Virus record (IMG/VR): IMGVR_UViG_3300030060_002753
Coordinates: 1-24,067 of that record
Origin: a virus
Length of the DNA stretch: 24,067 bases
Direction: 5' to 3' (one strand)
A model generated the notes under the pieces. It made no database searches, had not been told where the DNA came from, and saw only the letters and a list, made by a program, of their open reading frames with translations. Both the position numbers and the translations under genes were made by a program. Within the stretch, counting starts at the first letter, position 1, and the number at the start of each line of letters is the position of its first letter. Positions 1,541 to 11,794 of the stretch are shown here, in pieces.

Positions 1541-4009
1541 CTAAGCATGGGCATAATAAATAAATTTACGCCCCGACAAATTAGTATCAGGATCATTTGT
1601 TAAATAAATCCCAGTAGAAGTTGGATAACCAAAATCGGTATTACAGTTTTGTGCTCCATTAGTATTAAACTCAAACTTACAATCACCACCTGATCCCCAT
1701 CCTCTCAGGGTATCAAATACAGTCCAATTACCAGTGTAATCATAGCGTTTTACAAAAAAGAATCTTGGTTGAAATCCTGTTGTTATAGTTATAGGAGAAT
1801 TTGACCCCTCATAGCTACCAACCTTGCTGATGCCGTTAACGCTGGCGAAGAGCATGGCTATTAGATTTGACCCATCTTCATTAACACTTATATGAGATCC
1901 AACTGTAAAAGCTGTACTTGTAGGTTCTGTGTCGTTAAAATAAGCTGCTGAATCTTGTTCTGCATCAGTGGTATTTAAAATTAAATATTTATCGGCTGGA
2001 TTAGTTCCACCATTTAACCCTTTATGATAAACACGCCAATGAGCATTAGAAGCACTATTGTCTCTGTTTTTAATCCAAATCATTTCTGGGATTTTTGAAA
2101 GGTTATGACTTATTTGGCGACCAACAATATCGTCACCTTTATAAGTCACCACATCAAAACCAGCGTGGCGTTTCCACATCCATGCTTGATTGCTGCTGTT
2201 AAATTCATTTTTCCAAATTCCAACATTTGAATCAAAACTATATCCTGTACTACTATTTTCACTACTATTAGTATTTGCAACCAAATATTTTCCTTGAATA
2301 AGTCTTGCAGATGTAATCCAATTTCCAGTACCACCTGGATTCTTTTTCAAAGCCCAATCAACAGGGAATCCACTATCAAATACTGGAATAGTTGAACTAC
2401 CATTACCCGTATCCATAGCGAATACATCCGTACCAAGTTCGGGAGGTTTGCCCACGTATCCATCTGGTCTTCGGATTGCGATGTACATAAACTCACCACC
2501 ACTATTGTTTATGTCATGAGCTGCACTTGTTAATTGAAAGCCTGTAGAAGTTAAATTAAGTCTTGCATTTGTTGATTCACTAGCATTTGTATCTGCAAAT
2601 AACCTTGCGTCACTGCCACCAGTCACAATACCTCTCATTGAATCGAATATCACCCACTCTTGGTTACTTGACTCGTATCTTTTTATTAGTAACCATTGTG
2701 GTTCGTATCCTAAATTTACTGTTGTTCCATTAGAACTAGAACCATTTCCTGTATAGCTACCGCACGAAATTACACTAGCGTCTCCAGCTTCTCCAAATGA
2801 TTGATTATCATGTGCAAAAACATAAGCAACATAAGTACCATTTTCCGCATTTACTTCGGAATCTGTACCGACAACAAAGTAAGTAGATGTGGGTGATTGA
2901 TCGTTAAACATTTGATAACGCTCTTGTCTTGATCCATTAGTGTTTAGATGCATGTAATAAACATCTGCTGCCGTTGATGTTTGAATTGATCTATGCCATA
3001 CGATCCAATTATCACTGCTATCAGTTCTTTTGATAAAAATTGCACCAGGAACGCTGCCCAAGTCATGTGATATTTGCCTCGATCCATTACCTGAGCCTGT
3101 CCACTCACAAATTGTGAAGAACCCAGGTGCCTTGCGAAATGTCCAACTTGCGTAGGTATCAGTAGATGCTCCTGTCCTAGCGTTATCGGAAATTTGAAAA
3201 CCATAAGGTAAAAAACTTGTTAACCCATCAGAAATTGTTGTTTCAGAGGCATTACTACTGCTAACCAAAGCTTTTGTTGCTCCTCTTGCTGTGTCAAATA
3301 AAACATGTTCATTACTACTATTTCTTTGCTTTATCCAAACGAGACCGCCTTCTCCAGTTACGTTATAATCGGATAAACTTGCAACAGTTACCCTCCTTAT
3401 AGCCCTTACTAATCTTGTCTTAGTTTTATTATCAGTATTTGACCAAGTTCCACTACTCATGTAAATCATCCAAGCATAAGTAGAGTTAATTTCAGTACTT
3501 GACCATGTATCAAAACTTGCATCCCAAGCTTGTCCAGAAGGTAAAGTAGAACTGTTTTGATATAAAAGTGTTAATTCATCTTTTGCAGGTAAATACCAAT
3601 CACTATATCCATTTAATGACAAAGCATAGGCCCAATCAGCAGCAGGCCAATCACCTCCAGCAGCAGCCAATGTTGCCGTATTAGAAGGCCCGTTTGTTAA
3701 ACTTGTTGCTCCTGATGCTGTACTTGAAGATCCATAAGTTTTATAATTTCCGTTATTATTTCCTGTGCCATTAGGTGCAACTATTAAAGCATAATCAACA
3801 CTGTTATCTGTAAAAGTACCTTGATAATATCCACCCTGAATATACGTTCCAAGGGGTAAATTTAATCCTGTAGCTAACTTTAAACTATTATTTATAGTTT
3901 TTGCATTTCCATCGCCTTTCCAGAGGTAGGTCGAGAAAATATCGTCAACGTAGGTCGTCGTGGCAACTGCACTACCTGTTCCAAGAAATAATTGTTGTAT
4001 TGGTGTCAT
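1541..4009 (-). CDS. Second tail fibre/adhesin with DUF1566 lectin-like domain and six beta repeats
   Basis: The 822-residue protein begins MTPIQQLFLGTGSAVATTTY, then a STYLWKGDG leader familiar from cyanophage fibres. Residues ~50-207 form a DUF1566 (Lcl C-terminal, C-type-lectin-like) domain: DWAYALSLNGYSDWYLPAKD (125-144), TWSSTEINSTYAW (168-180) and a final RLVRAIRRV. Six repeats of roughly 90-115 residues follow, each opening with a strand like GLVWIKQRN, GAIFIKRTD, QWLLIKRYE, DWALKKNPG, EMIWIKNRD or FFFVKRYDY at about residues 218, 320, 436, 548, 640 and 747. This repeat type resembles the DUF7483 family of cyanophage fibres. Probable receptor-binding protein. It starts at ATG 4009 with GAGGT and ends ...FIYYAHA-TAG. 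Confidence 0.82.
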   Translation of the reverse strand: MTPIQQLFLGTGSAVATTTYVDDIFSTYLWKGDGNAKTINNSLKLATGLNLPLGTYIQGGYYQGTFTDNSVDYALIVAPNGTGNNNGNYKTYGSSSTASGATSLTNGPSNTATLAAAGGDWPAADWAYALSLNGYSDWYLPAKDELTLLYQNSSTLPSGQAWDASFDTWSSTEINSTYAWMIYMSSGTWSNTDNKTKTRLVRAIRRVTVASLSDYNVTGEGGLVWIKQRNSSNEHVLFDTARGATKALVSSSNASETTISDGLTSFLPYGFQISDNARTGASTDTYASWTFRKAPGFFTICEWTGSGNGSRQISHDLGSVPGAIFIKRTDSSDNWIVWHRSIQTSTAADVYYMHLNTNGSRQERYQMFNDQSPTSTYFVVGTDSEVNAENGTYVAYVFAHDNQSFGEAGDASVISCGSYTGNGSSSNGTTVNLGYEPQWLLIKRYESSNQEWVIFDSMRGIVTGGSDARLFADTNASESTNARLNLTSTGFQLTSAAHDINNSGGEFMYIAIRRPDGYVGKPPELGTDVFAMDTGNGSSTIPVFDSGFPVDWALKKNPGGTGNWITSARLIQGKYLVANTNSSENSSTGYSFDSNVGIWKNEFNSSNQAWMWKRHAGFDVVTYKGDDIVGRQISHNLSKIPEMIWIKNRDNSASNAHWRVYHKGLNGGTNPADKYLILNTTDAEQDSAAYFNDTEPTSTAFTVGSHISVNEDGSNLIAMLFASVNGISKVGSYEGSNSPITITTGFQPRFFFVKRYDYTGNWTVFDTLRGWGSGGDCKFEFNTNGAQNCNTDFGYPTSTGIYLTNDPDTNLSGRKFIYYAHA

Positions 4010-4021: not shown

Positions 4022-7000
4022 TTATGAAACAGTTAAGGCTGACGCTTGAATATATCCAACCGTTCCAGACCCCATCCAAATGGTAGCCATTGATCTCGCT
4101 CCAAGAGTTAAAGTACTTGCTTTTACATTAGCTCCATCAGCCGTATTGTATAAAGTAGTTAATGCAGTTGCATTTATAGTTTGATCATTACCACTATCGT
4201 TTAAAAGTGTAAAAGTATTTCCTTGAGACAACCCAGTTGGAATAACCCAACCGCCAGTAGTAGTTGCAACAACTTTTCCAGCATCACTCGCAGATAGGGT
4301 CATTGCACTCGTTCCAGCGTTAACTGGGATATTTCTTAAATCGCCTTTGCTGTCTGATACCGTTCCATTGACTTCTAATTCCGAACTTGGACTTGTTGTG
4401 CCAATACCAACTTTTCCATTTGCCAAAACGGTAAGTCTTTCTGATCCATGATAAATATGAATAGGGTCGCTTCCAGATGCTCTAAGATATGTAGCGGCAT
4501 AATTTTTATAAATTAAAAAGTCATCAGTCTCTCCATCAGATTGAAGTCGTATGCCTGCACCTTCACTCGAACCACTTGGCCCCGCCAAATGAAGGGTGGT
4601 CATTGAGCCTATTTGATTTGGTGTTGCGTTTATACCAAATAAAGTTCCAGCAAACGTGGCGTTTTGATCCTCATCAAGTGTTAATGCTAAGACATCATTT
4701 GTTGTTTTCTTTGTGTAAAATCTTAAACGTCCAGGCTTGTTTGTACTTCCCCAAGTTGCAGTAGACTCAGCAACAATTTTAGCTCCTACAGTTTCAGCAC
4801 TATCAGCAAATCTTATTTCACCTAATTGATCGGCTTGACTAGGAACAGAACCTCTTTGTATATGTATAATACCTTGTCCTGCTCCTCCACCGCTATATCC
4901 TTCGACTGTCAAAAGAGCAACTGAACTAGAAGCCGCATCACCAATCAAAGTTTTTCCATCAACAGTTAAACCTGTAAGCGTTCCAACAGAAGTGATATTT
5001 GATTGAGCAGCACCCGTAACCGTTGCAGCCGTTCCAGTTGTGTTTTGGTTAAGCGTTGGGACTCTTGCTGCTGCAATCGTTCCAGAAGCAATATTTGATG
5101 CGTTTAATGCAGTTAAAGTTGAACCATCTCCAATAAATGTCTTACCGCTAGCGACCTTAATATGCTCTGAAGATGTCCAAGCATCTGTAGCATCAACCCA
5201 GTTAAATGTCTTATCTGTTGCACCTTTAAGAGTTAAACCTCCTCCATCTGCGGTTGCATCACTAGGACTTGCAACTTTGCCAAGAGTTATATTTTTGTCT
5301 TCGACATCTAAATTGGTTGTATTAATAGTGGTAGTAGTGCCATTAACAGTGAGATCGCCACTTAGCGTTAATGACGCTGCATGAATAGCACTAGAAGCTA
5401 AAGCACCACCAGAACCTATATTGTTTTGATGAATAACTTCATAAAAATTACTTCCAGCATTAGGAGAGAATTTTAAATCAGTAGTTATAGATAAAAGTCT
5501 ATTAGTAGCTTGATTATGAAGATCAAACCTTTCATTACCACTCCCAGCAGTATTATCCCAACGAATATAGGCTTTATCAGTTGTACCTTCTTGGAATTGA
5601 ATATAAGGAGCACCAGAACCAGAAAGCACAATTTTCTGTCCACCATTACCACTTCCATTGATATTTAAAGGAACTCCAGAACCAGAACCATGATCTAATG
5701 TTAATCGTGCAGTAGTAAGTTCTCCTGTCGAAGAATTATAAGTAAAACCTGTATCTGTACTAGGAGTTAAATAACCTGTTGCAGTAGCTCCATTACCAGC
5801 AAATAAAGGATAAACCGTTGCTGCTACACTGTTTTGAGCAGTTACATTTACAGTTGAAGCTTGAGAAGCTGTTCCAGTAACATCTCCAGTAACATCTCCA
5901 ATAAAACTTGTCGCTGTCACAGCACCAGTCCCAGAGTTAAATGTAAATGAACTTGATCCTGCAAAAGCACCAGAATTATTAAATTGAACTTGTGTATTTG
6001 ATCCAGCAGCAGAAGTATCTACAACTTGCCAAGAACCGTCACCTCTTAAAAAATTAGAACTAGAAGCAGTTCCAGAACCAAGCCTTGCAGTTGGAACTGT
6101 TCCTGAACTTAGATTTGACGCATTTAAAGTTGATAGGTCTGCTTGATTGCTATTGGTCTGAACGCTGTTCCCCATTAAGGCATGAGCAGAGCATTGATAA
6201 TGAAGAACTTGTGGAGTTGTGTCTGAAACGACTATCTGTGTATAGGCTCCAGAAGATCCTGCTGTTCCGTTGGTTGTGACTCCTGTTGTATAAGCAGTTG
6301 TTTTGTCTGCTTCTAAGTAAAAACGAAGTGGATGATTTGCGTTAGAACTATCTGCTTGATCAAATTTATATGTACGTCCGGGTGTAAGAGTTAAGAAAGG
6401 AGATTCTTTTCCATCAATCTTGTATCCAGAACTAGATCCAGAACCGTTATAACGATGTGCACCAGTTTTACTTGCGACCGTAACTGTTAATGTTTTTGCG
6501 TTACCTGTATAAGTCGCACTAAGTGCAGCAAACCCAACTAAATTTCCATCATTAGTAAGACTTACATCTCCTGTAAATGTTGGTGATGATGTCGAACCGG
6601 GGTCAACCCAAGATAAAGTTCCAGATCCATCACTAGCTAAGACATAGCCAGAAACAGCAGCGTCAGCCGAAGGGAGAGTAAGAGTAAAACTGCTTGCAAC
6701 AGAAGCAGGAGATTGAAGAGCGACATAATGAGAGCTATCAGCGTCCTTAAACCGAAGGTCTGCTTGAGCGTTCAGATTAATATCACCACTACTTGTTAGA
6801 CCTGTAAGTGTTCCAACCGAAGTTAATGAACTAGCTGTTACTCCACTAGCCAAGGTTGCTCCACTTAATGTTCCAGCAGCAGCCGTAATTGTGATTGCAG
6901 CCGAACCATCAAAGTTAACTCCATTTATTGCCCTAGCTGTTGCAAGTTTTGTCGCTGTTGCAGCATTGCCTGTGTAATTAGTTCCATCAAGAACTTGTGT

Positions 7001-10000
7001 TCCATTTATCTTTAATACTTTTCCACTTACAAGATCAATATGTTCTGAACTTGTCCAAGCATCGGTGGAGTTGACCCAATTCCAAGTTTTATCTCCGTCA
7101 GATCCAGCATCAAGAGTAATACCACCGCCATCTGCTGTTGAGTCTGATGGGCTTGCTACCTTACCAAGCTCGATATTCTTATCAGCTACTTCAACAGTGG
7201 TACTTGAAACTGTAGTTGTTGTTCCATTAACAGTTAAATTCCCACCGACTACAACATTATTAGTGACGTTTAAACTTCCAAGTGTTCCTACAGAGGTCAA
7301 GCTTGAAGCCGTTACTCCACTAGCAAGAGTATTTCCAGAAAGAGTGCCAGCAGCAGCAGTAACTGTTATGTCACCAGTGCCATCAAAGTTAACGCCGTTA
7401 ATCGCTCTAGCTGTGGCTAAAGCAGTTGATGTTGAAGCATTACCTGTTACGTTCCCAGTGATATTTCCAACAAATGTTCCTGTGATTGTTCCACCATTAG
7501 TTATATCGTTGCTTCCTAGATTTAAATCTCCACTTAATGTGCCGCCTGCTAATGGCAACTTGGTTGGGTCTGTTGAATTATCTGTACCCCAACTTAGGTT
7601 TCCAGATCCATCAGTTTGTAGCCTTTGACCATTTGATCCATCACCATCAGGCAAGGTAAAAGTAATATCAGCCGTTACAGAATTAGGAGCTTTTAATGCT
7701 AAATAATGTGAGCCATTGGAGTCAGCCTCAGTAAGCCTAATGCTTTTTGCATTATCAATAATTAAGTTGTCAGTTAATGTGCCACCAGCTTTCGGCAAAG
7801 CCGCATTTGCTGTTGTAGCAGCAGCATCAGCAGCGTCCTTCGCAATCTTTACAGCAGCAGGAGTAGCAGCCGTAGTAGCAGAAGTAGATGTTGCACTGTC
7901 TGTTAACTGAAGAACACCAACAGCACTTGTAGTACCAGTCGCAACTTTTGAGCCAGTAATTGCAGCAGATCCTGAAATATCTGAATCAACAATGGAAGCA
8001 GCAGTAATTGAAACGACCCCTGCATTTGATATTGCTATATCTCCTGTAACTGAAACTGCAACAGCATCATTATTTGCATCTCCAACAAGAATCTTCGCTG
8101 ATGCTAAATCTGCTAATTTTGTAAACGCAATCGCAGCAGACGTACTTATATCAGCATTAAGAATCGTGCCATCAGCAATCATGGCTGAAGTAACAGTACC
8201 TGAATCGTTAGTTGTTATTAAAGTTCCAGAAGTATTAGGTAAAAGTATTGTTTTATCTGCTGTAGTTGGGTTAACAACACCTAAAGTAGTTTGAAATGCG
8301 TCTGTACTCGAACCCTCAAAAACAAGCGTTGCAGTATTACCAAATAAGACCTGACCTGTAACAGTACCACCAGCTTTTGCTAACTTCTCTGTCTCTATTT
8401 CTTCAAGAGCATCTTGAACATTTGTGCTTTGAAGTTGTCCAAATGGTGTAAAAGTAATATTACTTGCGACCTGCCCAGCCACTGTTTGCGATAAATCAAT
8501 TTCTTCCCATGAACTTCCAGATGTATTTGTAACACCTAAAATGTAATCTGGTGGAGCAAGAGCAACTACAGGTGCTGGCGCACTTGGAGTACCAGCATTT
8601 TCGACTACTAAATATATTCCATCAGTAGAACTTGTAGGGGTCGGTACGTTAGATCCAACGCTTAAACCTGCTGCTGCACCAGCGGTTGTTACACTTGCAA
8701 CTTTACTTGTCGAAGCGTTAAAAGTACCACCAAAGACCAGAGAACCTTTTGTTAAAGTTGTTACTGGCTGATAAGCATTTCCATCATATATATATAAATC
8801 TTCAGAGACAGAATCGAAGAAAAATTGTCCTGTGAACTCGCTGCTGGGGAAACCCGTCTGAGCTACAGATCCAAACAGCGTTGTTGACGCATTTGCAAGT
8901 TTTGCTCCTGATATTGTTGAGTTACCAATTCTAGCTGCGGCAATACTTCCAGAAGTTATTAATGCTGCACTGTGATTAGGAAGATCACTATCTGAAAGAC
9001 TTGTAAGATTAGTTACTCGCCCCTTTGCGTCAACTGTTACCTTTGCTCCTGTTCCTGCTGTTACTCCAGAGTTAGCAACTGTAATAGCACCATTTGAATC
9101 TATTGAAAGTGGCCCTCCAGTAGGAACAGACACTGCACCAACAGCACTAGCAGTTGCAACAGGTAAATCTGAAGCTCCTAATACCGCTGTTCCTGTTATT
9201 TGTCCAAAACTATTGAAGGTAACTTTTGTTGCTGTAGCTCCAGTCGTTGTGGCTGCAATTGACAATGCACCAGCACCACTAACAGTTAATCCACCTGACG
9301 TAGGAACAGAGACACCACCAACCGCAGTTGCTGTTGCTACAGGCAGATCGCTTGCTACCAGTGCAGTTGTAGCGGTTATTAGACCCTGAGCGTTATAACT
9401 TATCCCTGAGCGAGTTCCAGCCGAAACTGTATTGTTGATCCCTAATTTTCCAGACGCAACATTTAAAGATCTATCAATATCACTTGTAAGGAGCTTGGCT
9501 GCTGTAACCGTTCCATCAGTTAGCTTTGCTCCACTTATTCCACTTGCAACTTTTGCATCAGTGACAGAAGAAGCAGCAAGTTTTGCAGTTGTTACAGAAG
9601 TTGCACCTAAAGCAAGCGTATCAACTGCACCTGCTCCAAGCTTGGCACTTGTTACAGCATCATCGGCAATTTTTGCTGTTGTAACCGCATTACTAGCAAT
9701 AGATCCAGCAGGTATAGTGCCATCTAACTTCGCAGCCGTTACAGAACCATCAGCTATTTTCGCTGTGGTTATTGCAGCATCTGCCACAGCCGCCGTGTCT
9801 ACAGCATTATTTGCAAGTTCTGTTGCGGTAACTGCATTAGTTGCGATCTTTGCCGAAGTAACAGCGTTATTAGCTATAGCTGCTGTGTCAACCGCATCAT
9901 CAGCCAATTCACTAGCTGTTATTGCATTTGCAGCAATTTGACTAGCTGTGATTGAATTATTTGCAATTTTCGTTCCATCTATATCTCCAGCAGATAAATT

Positions 10001-11794
10001 TAATTTTGCTGCTGTAATTGTTGAAGCAGCTATTTTTGCTCCTGTTACAGCCAAGTTTGCTATGGCTGCTGTGTCTACCGCATCGTCAGCAAGTTCTGAA
10101 GCTCCAACAGCGTTTGCTGCTATTTCGCTTGCCCCTACAGAATCAGCAGCTAATTGAGTTGCAGTAATCGTGCCAGTAGCAATATTTGCTCCTTCAATTG
10201 TGGCTGCTGCTATCTTTGCTCCTGTTACCGCATCATCTGCTAAAGCATTGGTGTCAACTGCATCGTTGGCAAGTTCACTTGCTCCTATAGCGTTTGCCGC
10301 AATCTGACTTGCAGTAAGAGAATTATTTGCAATCTTTGCTCCAGCAATATCTCCATCTGAAAGATTTAATTTTGCATAAGCAATTGTCGTATTGGCAATT
10401 TTATCGTTAGTAACTGCTGCATCAACTATTGCCGCTGTATCAACAGCATTATCCGCTAATTCGCTTGAGCCGATTGCATTAGGAGCTATTTCCGAAGCTG
10501 TAATAGTATTTGCAACAATATTTCCTGCCGCAATTGTTGTCGCAGCAATATTTGCTCCTTCAATTGTCGCTGCTGCTATCTTTGCCCCAGTAACTGCGTC
10601 ATCAGCTATAGCCGCTGTATCTACAGCGTCATTCGCTAACTCACTAGCACCTACTGCATTTGCTGCTATTTGATTTGCTGTTAAAGAATTAGATGCAATC
10701 TTGGCAGCAGGAATATCTCCATCTGAGAGATTTAACTTTGCATAAGCAATAGTTGTATTAGCTATCTTTGCTCCAGTAACCGCATTATTTGCAATAGCAT
10801 TTGTATCAACAGCATCGTCTGCAAGTTCACTAGCCCCTACAGCGTTAGCAGCTATTTCACTAGCACCAACAGAATCTGCTGCAAGTTCAGTGGCAGTAAT
10901 TGTTCCAGCAACAATATTCGCCGCTGTAATTGTTGTATTAGCAATTTTTGCTCCAGTTACAGCCGCAGCACCTAACGCTGTTGTATCAACAGCACCCGCC
11001 GCAATTTTTGCAGCAGTTACAGCATCATCAAGAATTGCATTTGTATCTACAGCATCATCTGCTAATTCACTAGCACCTACAGCATTAGCAGCTATTTGAG
11101 TAGCCGTAATTGTTCCAGTTGCTAGTTTTGCGCCTGTAATAACACCATCAGTTATTTTAGATGCAGTAACAGAATTAGCTGCTAACTTTCCTGCCGTAAC
11201 AGCGAGATTAGCTATTGCATTTGTATCAACAGCATTATTAGCAAGTTCACTAGCACCAACAGCATCAGCGGCGATCTGTCCTGCTGTTATTGAATTATCA
11301 GCAATTTTTGCACCAGGAATATCTGCATTACTAAGATTTAACTTTGCATAAGCAATCGTTGCGTTTGCAATCTTATCGTTAGTAATTGCTGCATCTAAAA
11401 TCGCAGCAGTATCAACAGCGTCATCAGCTAATTCACTTGCACCTATTGCATTAGCTGCTATTTGTGTAGCAGTAATAGTATCGTTGACTAATTTGGCCCC
11501 AGTTATTGTTGCGTTCGCTATTTGAGTTGCTGTTATTGTTGCGTTTGCTATTTTTGCTGCCGTAACATTTAGATCAGTAATACTTGCTGTTACAACAGTA
11601 TTTGCCCCTAAAGCCGCAAGTGCTGAACCTGGAATTGAACCTGCATCGATTAAAGCAACACCTTTTTCTACTAACGCCTTAGCCGTAATTCGTTTCGTTT
11701 CCGATGCACTGCCGTCTACGACAGCTAATTCATCTCCAGCCGCTAAATCTGCTTCAGCTAACGGAGGCAGTTGACTTATTTGAAGATCAGCCAT
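4022..11794 (-). CDS. Giant tail fibre (2590 residues) with repeat shaft and embedded cupredoxin-like domain
   Basis: Modules in order: an N-terminal anchor (residues 1-58: LQISQLPPLAEADLAAGDEL and SASETKRITA), typical of cyanophage fibres; an Ala/Asn/Thr repeat shaft (about 60-770) built from ~10-residue units such as ASELADDAVDTAAIA and AVTGAKIA; a mixed region (770-1440); two copies of a 'VNGTTTT..DKNI.LGKVASPSD' module (about 1517-1590 and 2150-2215); a cupredoxin-like domain (about 1760-1884; His1821, Cys1868, His1871, Met1874); and a C-terminal block with VGIGTTSPSSELEVNG and a SKGDLRNIPVNAGTSAMTLS cap (about 2480-2590) common at phage fibre tips. There is no S74 peptidase after the VGIGTTSP motif. 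Probably a homotrimer for host contact. Confidence 0.9.
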   Translation of the reverse strand: MADLQISQLPPLAEADLAAGDELAVVDGSASETKRITAKALVEKGVALIDAGSIPGSALAALGANTVVTASITDLNVTAAKIANATITATQIANATITGAKLVNDTITATQIAANAIGASELADDAVDTAAILDAAITNDKIANATIAYAKLNLSNADIPGAKIADNSITAGQIAADAVGASELANNAVDTNAIANLAVTAGKLAANSVTASKITDGVITGAKLATGTITATQIAANAVGASELADDAVDTNAILDDAVTAAKIAAGAVDTTALGAAAVTGAKIANTTITAANIVAGTITATELAADSVGASEIAANAVGASELADDAVDTNAIANNAVTGAKIANTTIAYAKLNLSDGDIPAAKIASNSLTANQIAANAVGASELANDAVDTAAIADDAVTGAKIAAATIEGANIAATTIAAGNIVANTITASEIAPNAIGSSELADNAVDTAAIVDAAVTNDKIANTTIAYAKLNLSDGDIAGAKIANNSLTASQIAANAIGASELANDAVDTNALADDAVTGAKIAAATIEGANIATGTITATQLAADSVGASEIAANAVGASELADDAVDTAAIANLAVTGAKIAASTITAAKLNLSAGDIDGTKIANNSITASQIAANAITASELADDAVDTAAIANNAVTSAKIATNAVTATELANNAVDTAAVADAAITTAKIADGSVTAAKLDGTIPAGSIASNAVTTAKIADDAVTSAKLGAGAVDTLALGATSVTTAKLAASSVTDAKVASGISGAKLTDGTVTAAKLLTSDIDRSLNVASGKLGINNTVSAGTRSGISYNAQGLITATTALVASDLPVATATAVGGVSVPTSGGLTVSGAGALSIAATTTGATATKVTFNSFGQITGTAVLGASDLPVATASAVGAVSVPTGGPLSIDSNGAITVANSGVTAGTGAKVTVDAKGRVTNLTSLSDSDLPNHSAALITSGSIAAARIGNSTISGAKLANASTTLFGSVAQTGFPSSEFTGQFFFDSVSEDLYIYDGNAYQPVTTLTKGSLVFGGTFNASTSKVASVTTAGAAAGLSVGSNVPTPTSSTDGIYLVVENAGTPSAPAPVVALAPPDYILGVTNTSGSSWEEIDLSQTVAGQVASNITFTPFGQLQSTNVQDALEEIETEKLAKAGGTVTGQVLFGNTATLVFEGSSTDAFQTTLGVVNPTTADKTILLPNTSGTLITTNDSGTVTSAMIADGTILNADISTSAAIAFTKLADLASAKILVGDANNDAVAVSVTGDIAISNAGVVSITAASIVDSDISGSAAITGSKVATGTTSAVGVLQLTDSATSTSATTAATPAAVKIAKDAADAAATTANAALPKAGGTLTDNLIIDNAKSIRLTEADSNGSHYLALKAPNSVTADITFTLPDGDGSNGQRLQTDGSGNLSWGTDNSTDPTKLPLAGGTLSGDLNLGSNDITNGGTITGTFVGNITGNVTGNASTSTALATARAINGVNFDGTGDITVTAAAGTLSGNTLASGVTASSLTSVGTLGSLNVTNNVVVGGNLTVNGTTTTVSSTTVEVADKNIELGKVASPSDSTADGGGITLDAGSDGDKTWNWVNSTDAWTSSEHIDLVSGKVLKINGTQVLDGTNYTGNAATATKLATARAINGVNFDGSAAITITAAAGTLSGATLASGVTASSLTSVGTLTGLTSSGDINLNAQADLRFKDADSSHYVALQSPASVASSFTLTLPSADAAVSGYVLASDGSGTLSWVDPGSTSSPTFTGDVSLTNDGNLVGFAALSATYTGNAKTLTVTVASKTGAHRYNGSGSSSGYKIDGKESPFLTLTPGRTYKFDQADSSNANHPLRFYLEADKTTAYTTGVTTNGTAGSSGAYTQIVVSDTTPQVLHYQCSAHALMGNSVQTNSNQADLSTLNASNLSSGTVPTARLGSGTASSSNFLRGDGSWQVVDTSAAGSNTQVQFNNSGAFAGSSSFTFNSGTGAVTATSFIGDVTGDVTGTASQASTVNVTAQNSVAATVYPLFAGNGATATGYLTPSTDTGFTYNSSTGELTTARLTLDHGSGSGVPLNINGSGNGGQKIVLSGSGAPYIQFQEGTTDKAYIRWDNTAGSGNERFDLHNQATNRLLSITTDLKFSPNAGSNFYEVIHQNNIGSGGALASSAIHAASLTLSGDLTVNGTTTTINTTNLDVEDKNITLGKVASPSDATADGGGLTLKGATDKTFNWVDATDAWTSSEHIKVASGKTFIGDGSTLTALNASNIASGTIAAARVPTLNQNTTGTAATVTGAAQSNITSVGTLTGLTVDGKTLIGDAASSSVALLTVEGYSGGGAGQGIIHIQRGSVPSQADQLGEIRFADSAETVGAKIVAESTATWGSTNKPGRLRFYTKKTTNDVLALTLDEDQNATFAGTLFGINATPNQIGSMTTLHLAGPSGSSEGAGIRLQSDGETDDFLIYKNYAATYLRASGSDPIHIYHGSERLTVLANGKVGIGTTSPSSELEVNGTVSDSKGDLRNIPVNAGTSAMTLSASDAGKVVATTTGGWVIPTGLSQGNTFTLLNDSGNDQTINATALTTLYNTADGANVKASTLTLGARSMATIWMGSGTVGYIQASALTVS
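5150..5350 (-). repeat. Fibre module, copy B of the DKNI/LGKVASPSD unit
   Basis: It codes VNGTTTTINTTNLDVEDKNI, LGKVASPSDATADGGG and FNWVDATDAWTSSEHI, in the same order as the unit at about 7030-7245, with moderate divergence. Confidence 0.75.
7030..7440 (-). repeat. Fibre module, copy A
   Basis: This stretch codes LATARAINGVNFDGTGDITV, SGVTASSLTSVGTLGSLNV and VNGTTTTVSSTTVEVADKNI with LGKVASPSDSTADGGG, ending ...NSTDAWTSSEHI. Related copies recur at about 6795-6955 (LATARAINGVNFDGSAAITI) and 5150-5350 (VNGTTTTINTTNLDVEDKNI...DATDAWTSSEHI). Segmental duplication within one gene is the simplest reading. Confidence 0.75.
9480..11620 (-). repeat. Fibre-shaft repeats with 366-nt super-repeat
   Basis: The shaft is coded by degenerate ~30-nt units. 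On a larger scale the KLNLS(x)(x)DI landmark recurs, with its TTT trinucleotide (plus strand) at 9999, 10365, 10731 and 11337. Spacings are 366, 366 and 606 nt (122, 122 and 202 residues). Each super-unit runs KLNLS..DI - AKIA.NS - QIAANA - ASELA.DAVDT.AIA - AVTGAKIA. The exact 366-nt spacing of three copies points to recent tandem duplication. Confidence 0.8.

Follow-up and report, generated by a model that had tools for sequence, protein, structure and literature searches.

Cupredoxins have been described as copper proteins that are either free in solution or bound in enzymes, and blue copper proteins act in photosynthesis and respiration. Among described systems, amicyanin and plastocyanin (PF00127) have in common with the phage domain reported here a predicted beta-sandwich and the ligand order His...Cys-x2-His...Met; with plastocyanin it further shares the His-to-Cys distance of 47 residues, and with amicyanin the C-x2-H-x2-M loop. 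However, those proteins are soluble electron carriers, whereas the phage domain is a module of a 2590-residue fibre; its first ligand His precedes Pro (HP) rather than Asn, and its sequence falls under the Pfam cut-off. Rusticyanin and the domains of multicopper oxidases and nitrite reductases provide its best structural matches. In multicopper oxidases, too, the first type-1 ligand is a His followed by Pro, but the phage domain carries neither the type-2/type-3 His-x-His ligands nor the second cupredoxin domain of these enzymes. Stellacyanins use Gln as axial ligand, as do ten phage copies in which His, Cys, and His are kept; the copy described here has Met.

Two further systems come from phages themselves. 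The cyanophage plastocyanin PetE, encoded by an auxiliary metabolic gene, is a cupredoxin from the same phage group, but it is a separate soluble protein for host photosynthesis and not a fibre module. The iron sites of T4 gp37 and HxH motifs in marine phage fibres have been proposed to support a Trojan Horse (Ferrojan) attachment (PMC11705849). There, too, a metal site on a fibre is proposed to matter in the ocean; those sites hold iron by paired His-x-His in an octahedral sphere, whereas the phage domain presents a type-1 copper ligand set from one chain within an independent fold. Both the fold and the set of ligands are therefore familiar. In the open-access papers that we searched, no description was found of a conserved type-1 site recurring as a module of virion tail parts.

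The window, meaning the whole 24,067-nucleotide stretch of viral DNA that was analyzed (IMG/VR record IMGVR_UViG_3300030060_002753), is a virus contig and probably a fragment. The features that concern us are as follows.

4022..11794, minus strand: giant tail fibre ORF carrying the domain, 2590 aa, with matches to phrog_892 and phrog_30742
6146..6526, minus strand: cupredoxin-like domain, residues 1757-1883 (core about 1763-1882), placed by profile boundaries, a pLDDT of 92.1, and PDB matches
6332..6334, minus strand: ligand His1821 (the H of HPLRF), present in 335 of 338 copies, rank 1 of 108 positions in conservation
6191..6193, minus strand: ligand Cys1868, 331 of 338 copies, rank 2 of 108
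6182..6184, minus strand: ligand His1871, 333 of 338 copies, rank 4 of 108
6173..6175, minus strand: axial ligand Met1874, Met in 321 of 338 copies and Gln in 10, rank 5 of 108

The original prediction placed a complete set of type-1 copper ligands (H1821, C1868, H1871, and M1874) in a cupredoxin-like domain inside a phage tail fibre, and all four residues were found at the positions that it had given. The setting was upheld as well. The ORF matches the tail fiber families phrog_892 (E 3.5e-81) and phrog_30742 (E 4.8e-62), relatives of the gene in isolates are annotated as tail fibre, and it shares a block with genes for a tail terminator, a tail tube, a tape measure, and minor tail proteins. 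The host of this virus is likely cyanobacterial, to judge by sequence resemblance, because the adjacent tail protein is 26-28% identical to its counterparts in the Synechococcus phages S-CBS1, S-CBS3, and S-LBS1.

Several features of the fibre set the ligands apart. Cys1868 is the sole Cys among its 2590 residues, and M1874 is one of 7 Met; the pattern H-x(34-60)-C-x2-H-x(2-4)-M did not arise when the fibre sequence was shuffled 20,000 times, which, together with conservation across 338 copies, rules out a chance motif. That the only Cys should be the ligand is not a general rule for such fibres; it holds in 38 of 217 proteins, the window fibre among them. The finer comparisons of the original prediction stood in part. 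Its likening of the C-x2-H-x2-M loop to amicyanin was borne out, and a solved structure among the fold matches, PDB 2vmj, bears a grafted amicyanin loop (CTPHPFM); the likening to pseudoazurin was not, since pseudoazurin and plastocyanin show C-x2-H-x4-M in alignments. The spacing of 47 residues from His to Cys, said to be as in plastocyanin, is correct but not diagnostic, as it spans 41 to 65 among relatives.

Single-sequence searches were almost silent (a search of the PDB with the window domain returned just a weak match to an unrelated acylase), and a profile of relatives was therefore needed. Relatives were collected by searching viral contigs with four queries and adding isolates, giving a 110-row alignment (A1). 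The AlphaFold2 model of the window domain built on this alignment is all-beta with eight strands (mean pLDDT 92.1, pTM 0.86), and all 50 of the PDB matches listed for it are cupredoxins, led by rusticyanin (E 3.1e-4, probability 1.00) and followed by nitrite reductase, laccases, and amicyanin. The model of A3, a divergent sister subfamily, has a pLDDT of 95.9 and 79 PDB matches at E<=0.001, with E-values below those of the window domain; the 50 listed are all cupredoxins and include plastocyanin, amicyanin, ascorbate oxidase, and the Nitrosopumilus purple cupredoxin. TM-scores against solved cupredoxins reach only 0.4-0.6 (0.4-0.53 for the window domain), with rmsd mostly 3-7 A, and the domain is therefore a divergent member of the group. 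No fold other than the cupredoxin appears among the 50 matches listed for the window model, and residues 1757-1883 almost certainly adopt it.

Sequence comparisons point the same way. The A1 profile retrieved nitrite reductase (3.8e-4), plastocyanin (2e-3), and pseudoazurin (3.1e-3) from the PDB sequences, and mostly cupredoxins thereafter. Against a mixed profile of six phage plastocyanins and two bacterial cupredoxins it aligned with P 7e-6 and with the four ligand columns in register; the profile-profile score was 36.4 for this mixed set, 23.3 for plastocyanins alone, and at most 14.3 for column-shuffled plastocyanin profiles. Set against the phage plastocyanins alone, A1 gave a probability of 13%, and azurin was not supported as nearest kin (hhalign probability 3% against azurins alone). 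PF00127 (Copper-bind) gave no match to the window domain at E<=1, and some signal of it was present in 25 of the 110 A1 members. Two family members exceed its cut-off of 21.2 bits, L104 in a phage (22.2) and L380 in a flavobacterial genome (22.0). NCBIfam returned no match in the window, so that the cut-off of the amicyanin model TIGR02657 was not reached there; cellular relatives score up to 25 bits against that cut-off of 110. Pfam matches to At5g54830-like and Ig-type domains were under cut-off and scattered, and were set aside.

A fold other than the cupredoxin and freely varying ligands were the two results taken as refuting the idea, and neither appeared. Conservation at the four ligand positions is close to the highest in the family: they rank 1, 2, 4, and 5 of 108 when redundant sequences are down-weighted (effective number 26). 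The set reads HCHM in 320 of the 338 distinct copies and HCHQ in 10. Codons for the ligand His and Cys differ synonymously (CAT/CAC, TGT/TGC) while the residues stay constant, which indicates selection and rules out recent copying as the cause of the conservation. The copies with axial Gln (WCHFHTGQG) are confined to the third copy of P-HM1-like giant fibres (for example L187, L191, L190, L231, and L253). Where core ligands have been lost, several are usually missing from the same copy (HSSV, ESNY, KDHT, KDHV).

Such losses bear on whether the domain might be an Ig-like spacer descended from a copper protein, its metal now unused. Ligands are gone from some copies (L242, L087, and L088 first copies) and from the first of two domain copies in a flavobacterial adhesin (L336, 4386-11777, 2464 aa); the persistence of these copies means that the fold can exist without ligands. 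However, a workable set is kept in 330 of 338 copies, the ligands outrank nearly every structural residue in conservation, and the sole Cys of the window fibre is a ligand. A relic fold of this kind therefore seems decidedly unlikely to us.

We instead regard residues 1757-1883 as probably a cupredoxin with a complete type-1 copper site, serving as a host-contact or structural module in a virion-borne family. That copper occupies the predicted site in the virion is, taken on its own, quite probable. A solved cupredoxin-like protein among the A3 matches, 4hcg, holds zinc, and the metal in the phage domain therefore need not be copper. Phage fibres assemble in the cytoplasm, which offers more available zinc than copper, and in the virion zinc, or else Cu(I) only, might act as a lock for the fold. 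The axial Met and the C-x2-H-x2-M loop fit type-1 copper sites instead, and we judge a different metal to be quite unlikely.

Under the preferred copper reading, the domain would be apo in the reducing, copper-poor cytoplasm and would take up copper once the virion is released from the cell; bound copper would then rigidify, or lock, a loop-rich fibre domain. The stiffened domain might contribute to host-surface contact in a structural or adhesive rather than catalytic capacity. A structural or host-contact role in preference to electron transfer is proposed only tentatively, as a matter close to evenly balanced.

A redox use would have the site pass electrons to or from carriers on the host surface or in the periplasm, or protect virions in sunlit water by quenching damaging oxidants. 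The type-1 ligand set is full and includes the axial Met/Gln switch, which tunes the potential in known cupredoxins; moreover, plastocyanin is employed by hosts and phages of the same group. However, no partner for electron transfer and no other redox domain were found in the fibre, and the residues near the exposed His differ among close relatives (HALM, HSLM, HPLM, HGFM). We consider this use improbable, and retain the structural or host-contact module as the preferred account.

The domain recurs in unrelated fibres, baseplate proteins, and connectors of marine phages. Searching 50,697 phage records with three queries recovered marine phages only, namely phages of Prochlorococcus, Synechococcus, Pelagibacter (SAR11), and Methylophilales, with a few that are unassigned or uncultured. 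Among the proteins concerned are tail fibres, proximal tail fibres, gp7 baseplate wedge proteins, gp9 fibre connectors, and virion structural proteins. A profile search of isolates found matches in 18 of 19, with up to five per genome, where 13 of the 19 had been picked as domain carriers and six added for their plastocyanin gene (five of these six matched). C-x2-H is intact in most of the isolate matches and absent from the weakest (e.g., L414 and L426). The domain also occurs in T7-like pelagiphage fibres within SAR11 assemblies; a SAR11 cellular gene was ruled out, as these matches are T7-like phage fibre genes adjoining phage genes. Three SAR11 contigs, L334 (117 kb), L335 (133 kb), and L341, carry such fibre genes with the domain beside phage genes, and look like proviruses or co-assembled phage.

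This distribution could be read as metal-baited attachment, a copper version of the Ferrojan in which copper on the fibre draws outer-membrane proteins of the host that take up metal or handle copper. Iron in fibres has already been proposed for such a use (PMC11705849), the domain sits in host-contact parts (fibres, gp9-type connectors, and baseplate proteins), and among the 50,697 records it is confined to marine phages. However, it would require a copper receptor common to hosts as unrelated as cyanobacteria, SAR11, and Methylophilales; moreover, several copies belong to baseplate proteins of a structural kind, and a buried type-1 site makes a poor lure. Baiting of this sort appears unlikely, and a copper-stiffened module for structure or host contact is still the account that we favor.

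Outside phages, Flavobacteriaceae lipoproteins with CHRD or Lipoprotein_15 (PF03640) repeats (L374-L390) carry the domain at their C-terminus with all four ligands kept. By hhalign (99.9%), it is a homolog of the phage domain; the lipoproteins are cell-surface or secreted, whereas the phage domains are virion parts. The combination of repeats with a cupredoxin suggests, by its domain arrangement, a surface copper or redox function. Matches to the domain were found in 26 of 251 Flavobacteriaceae genomes and, rarely, in Pseudomonadota (3 of 299 genomes), the latter including one SAR11 phage gene and one multicopper oxidase. The oxidase match (L428) is a multicopper oxidase domain with HP (HPIHIHGH) and C-H motifs, found by the family profile.

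Hundreds of related marine phages retain all four ligands, so copper may be present on the host-contacting parts of many ocean viruses. In a broader proposal, which we hold to be on the doubtful side, many marine phage virions are copper proteins: their fibres and baseplates would bear tens of type-1 sites per particle, filled from sea water after lysis, and fibre stiffness or host attachment would be governed by the copper state of these sites. If it were true, copper availability would affect infection, and the virus pool would hold part of the ocean's organically bound copper; the domain occurs in phages of the ocean's most abundant bacteria. More immediately, these results name a domain in hundreds of proteins labeled hypothetical or structural, and a vague notion of metals on phage fibres becomes testable through a domain of 127 residues.

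Additional observations were made along the way. The N-terminal half of the window fibre contains a tandem repeat of 366 bases (9842-10918; 2.9 copies, 69% matches) encoding units of the ADDAVDTNAI type, and another fibre-like ORF of 822 aa (1541-4009) matches DUF7483 in two stretches and contains an Lcl_C domain. In Synechococcus phage S-SCSM1, a plastocyanin-like stretch (NC_070962.1, 127779-128000) is annotated as "tail tip protein Tal," which is probably a misannotation. Two "beta-sandwich proteins" of giant viruses (Pithovirus and Marseillevirus; BFVD A0A481Z6J5 and A0A481YY19) gave fold matches with a TM-score of about 0.7.
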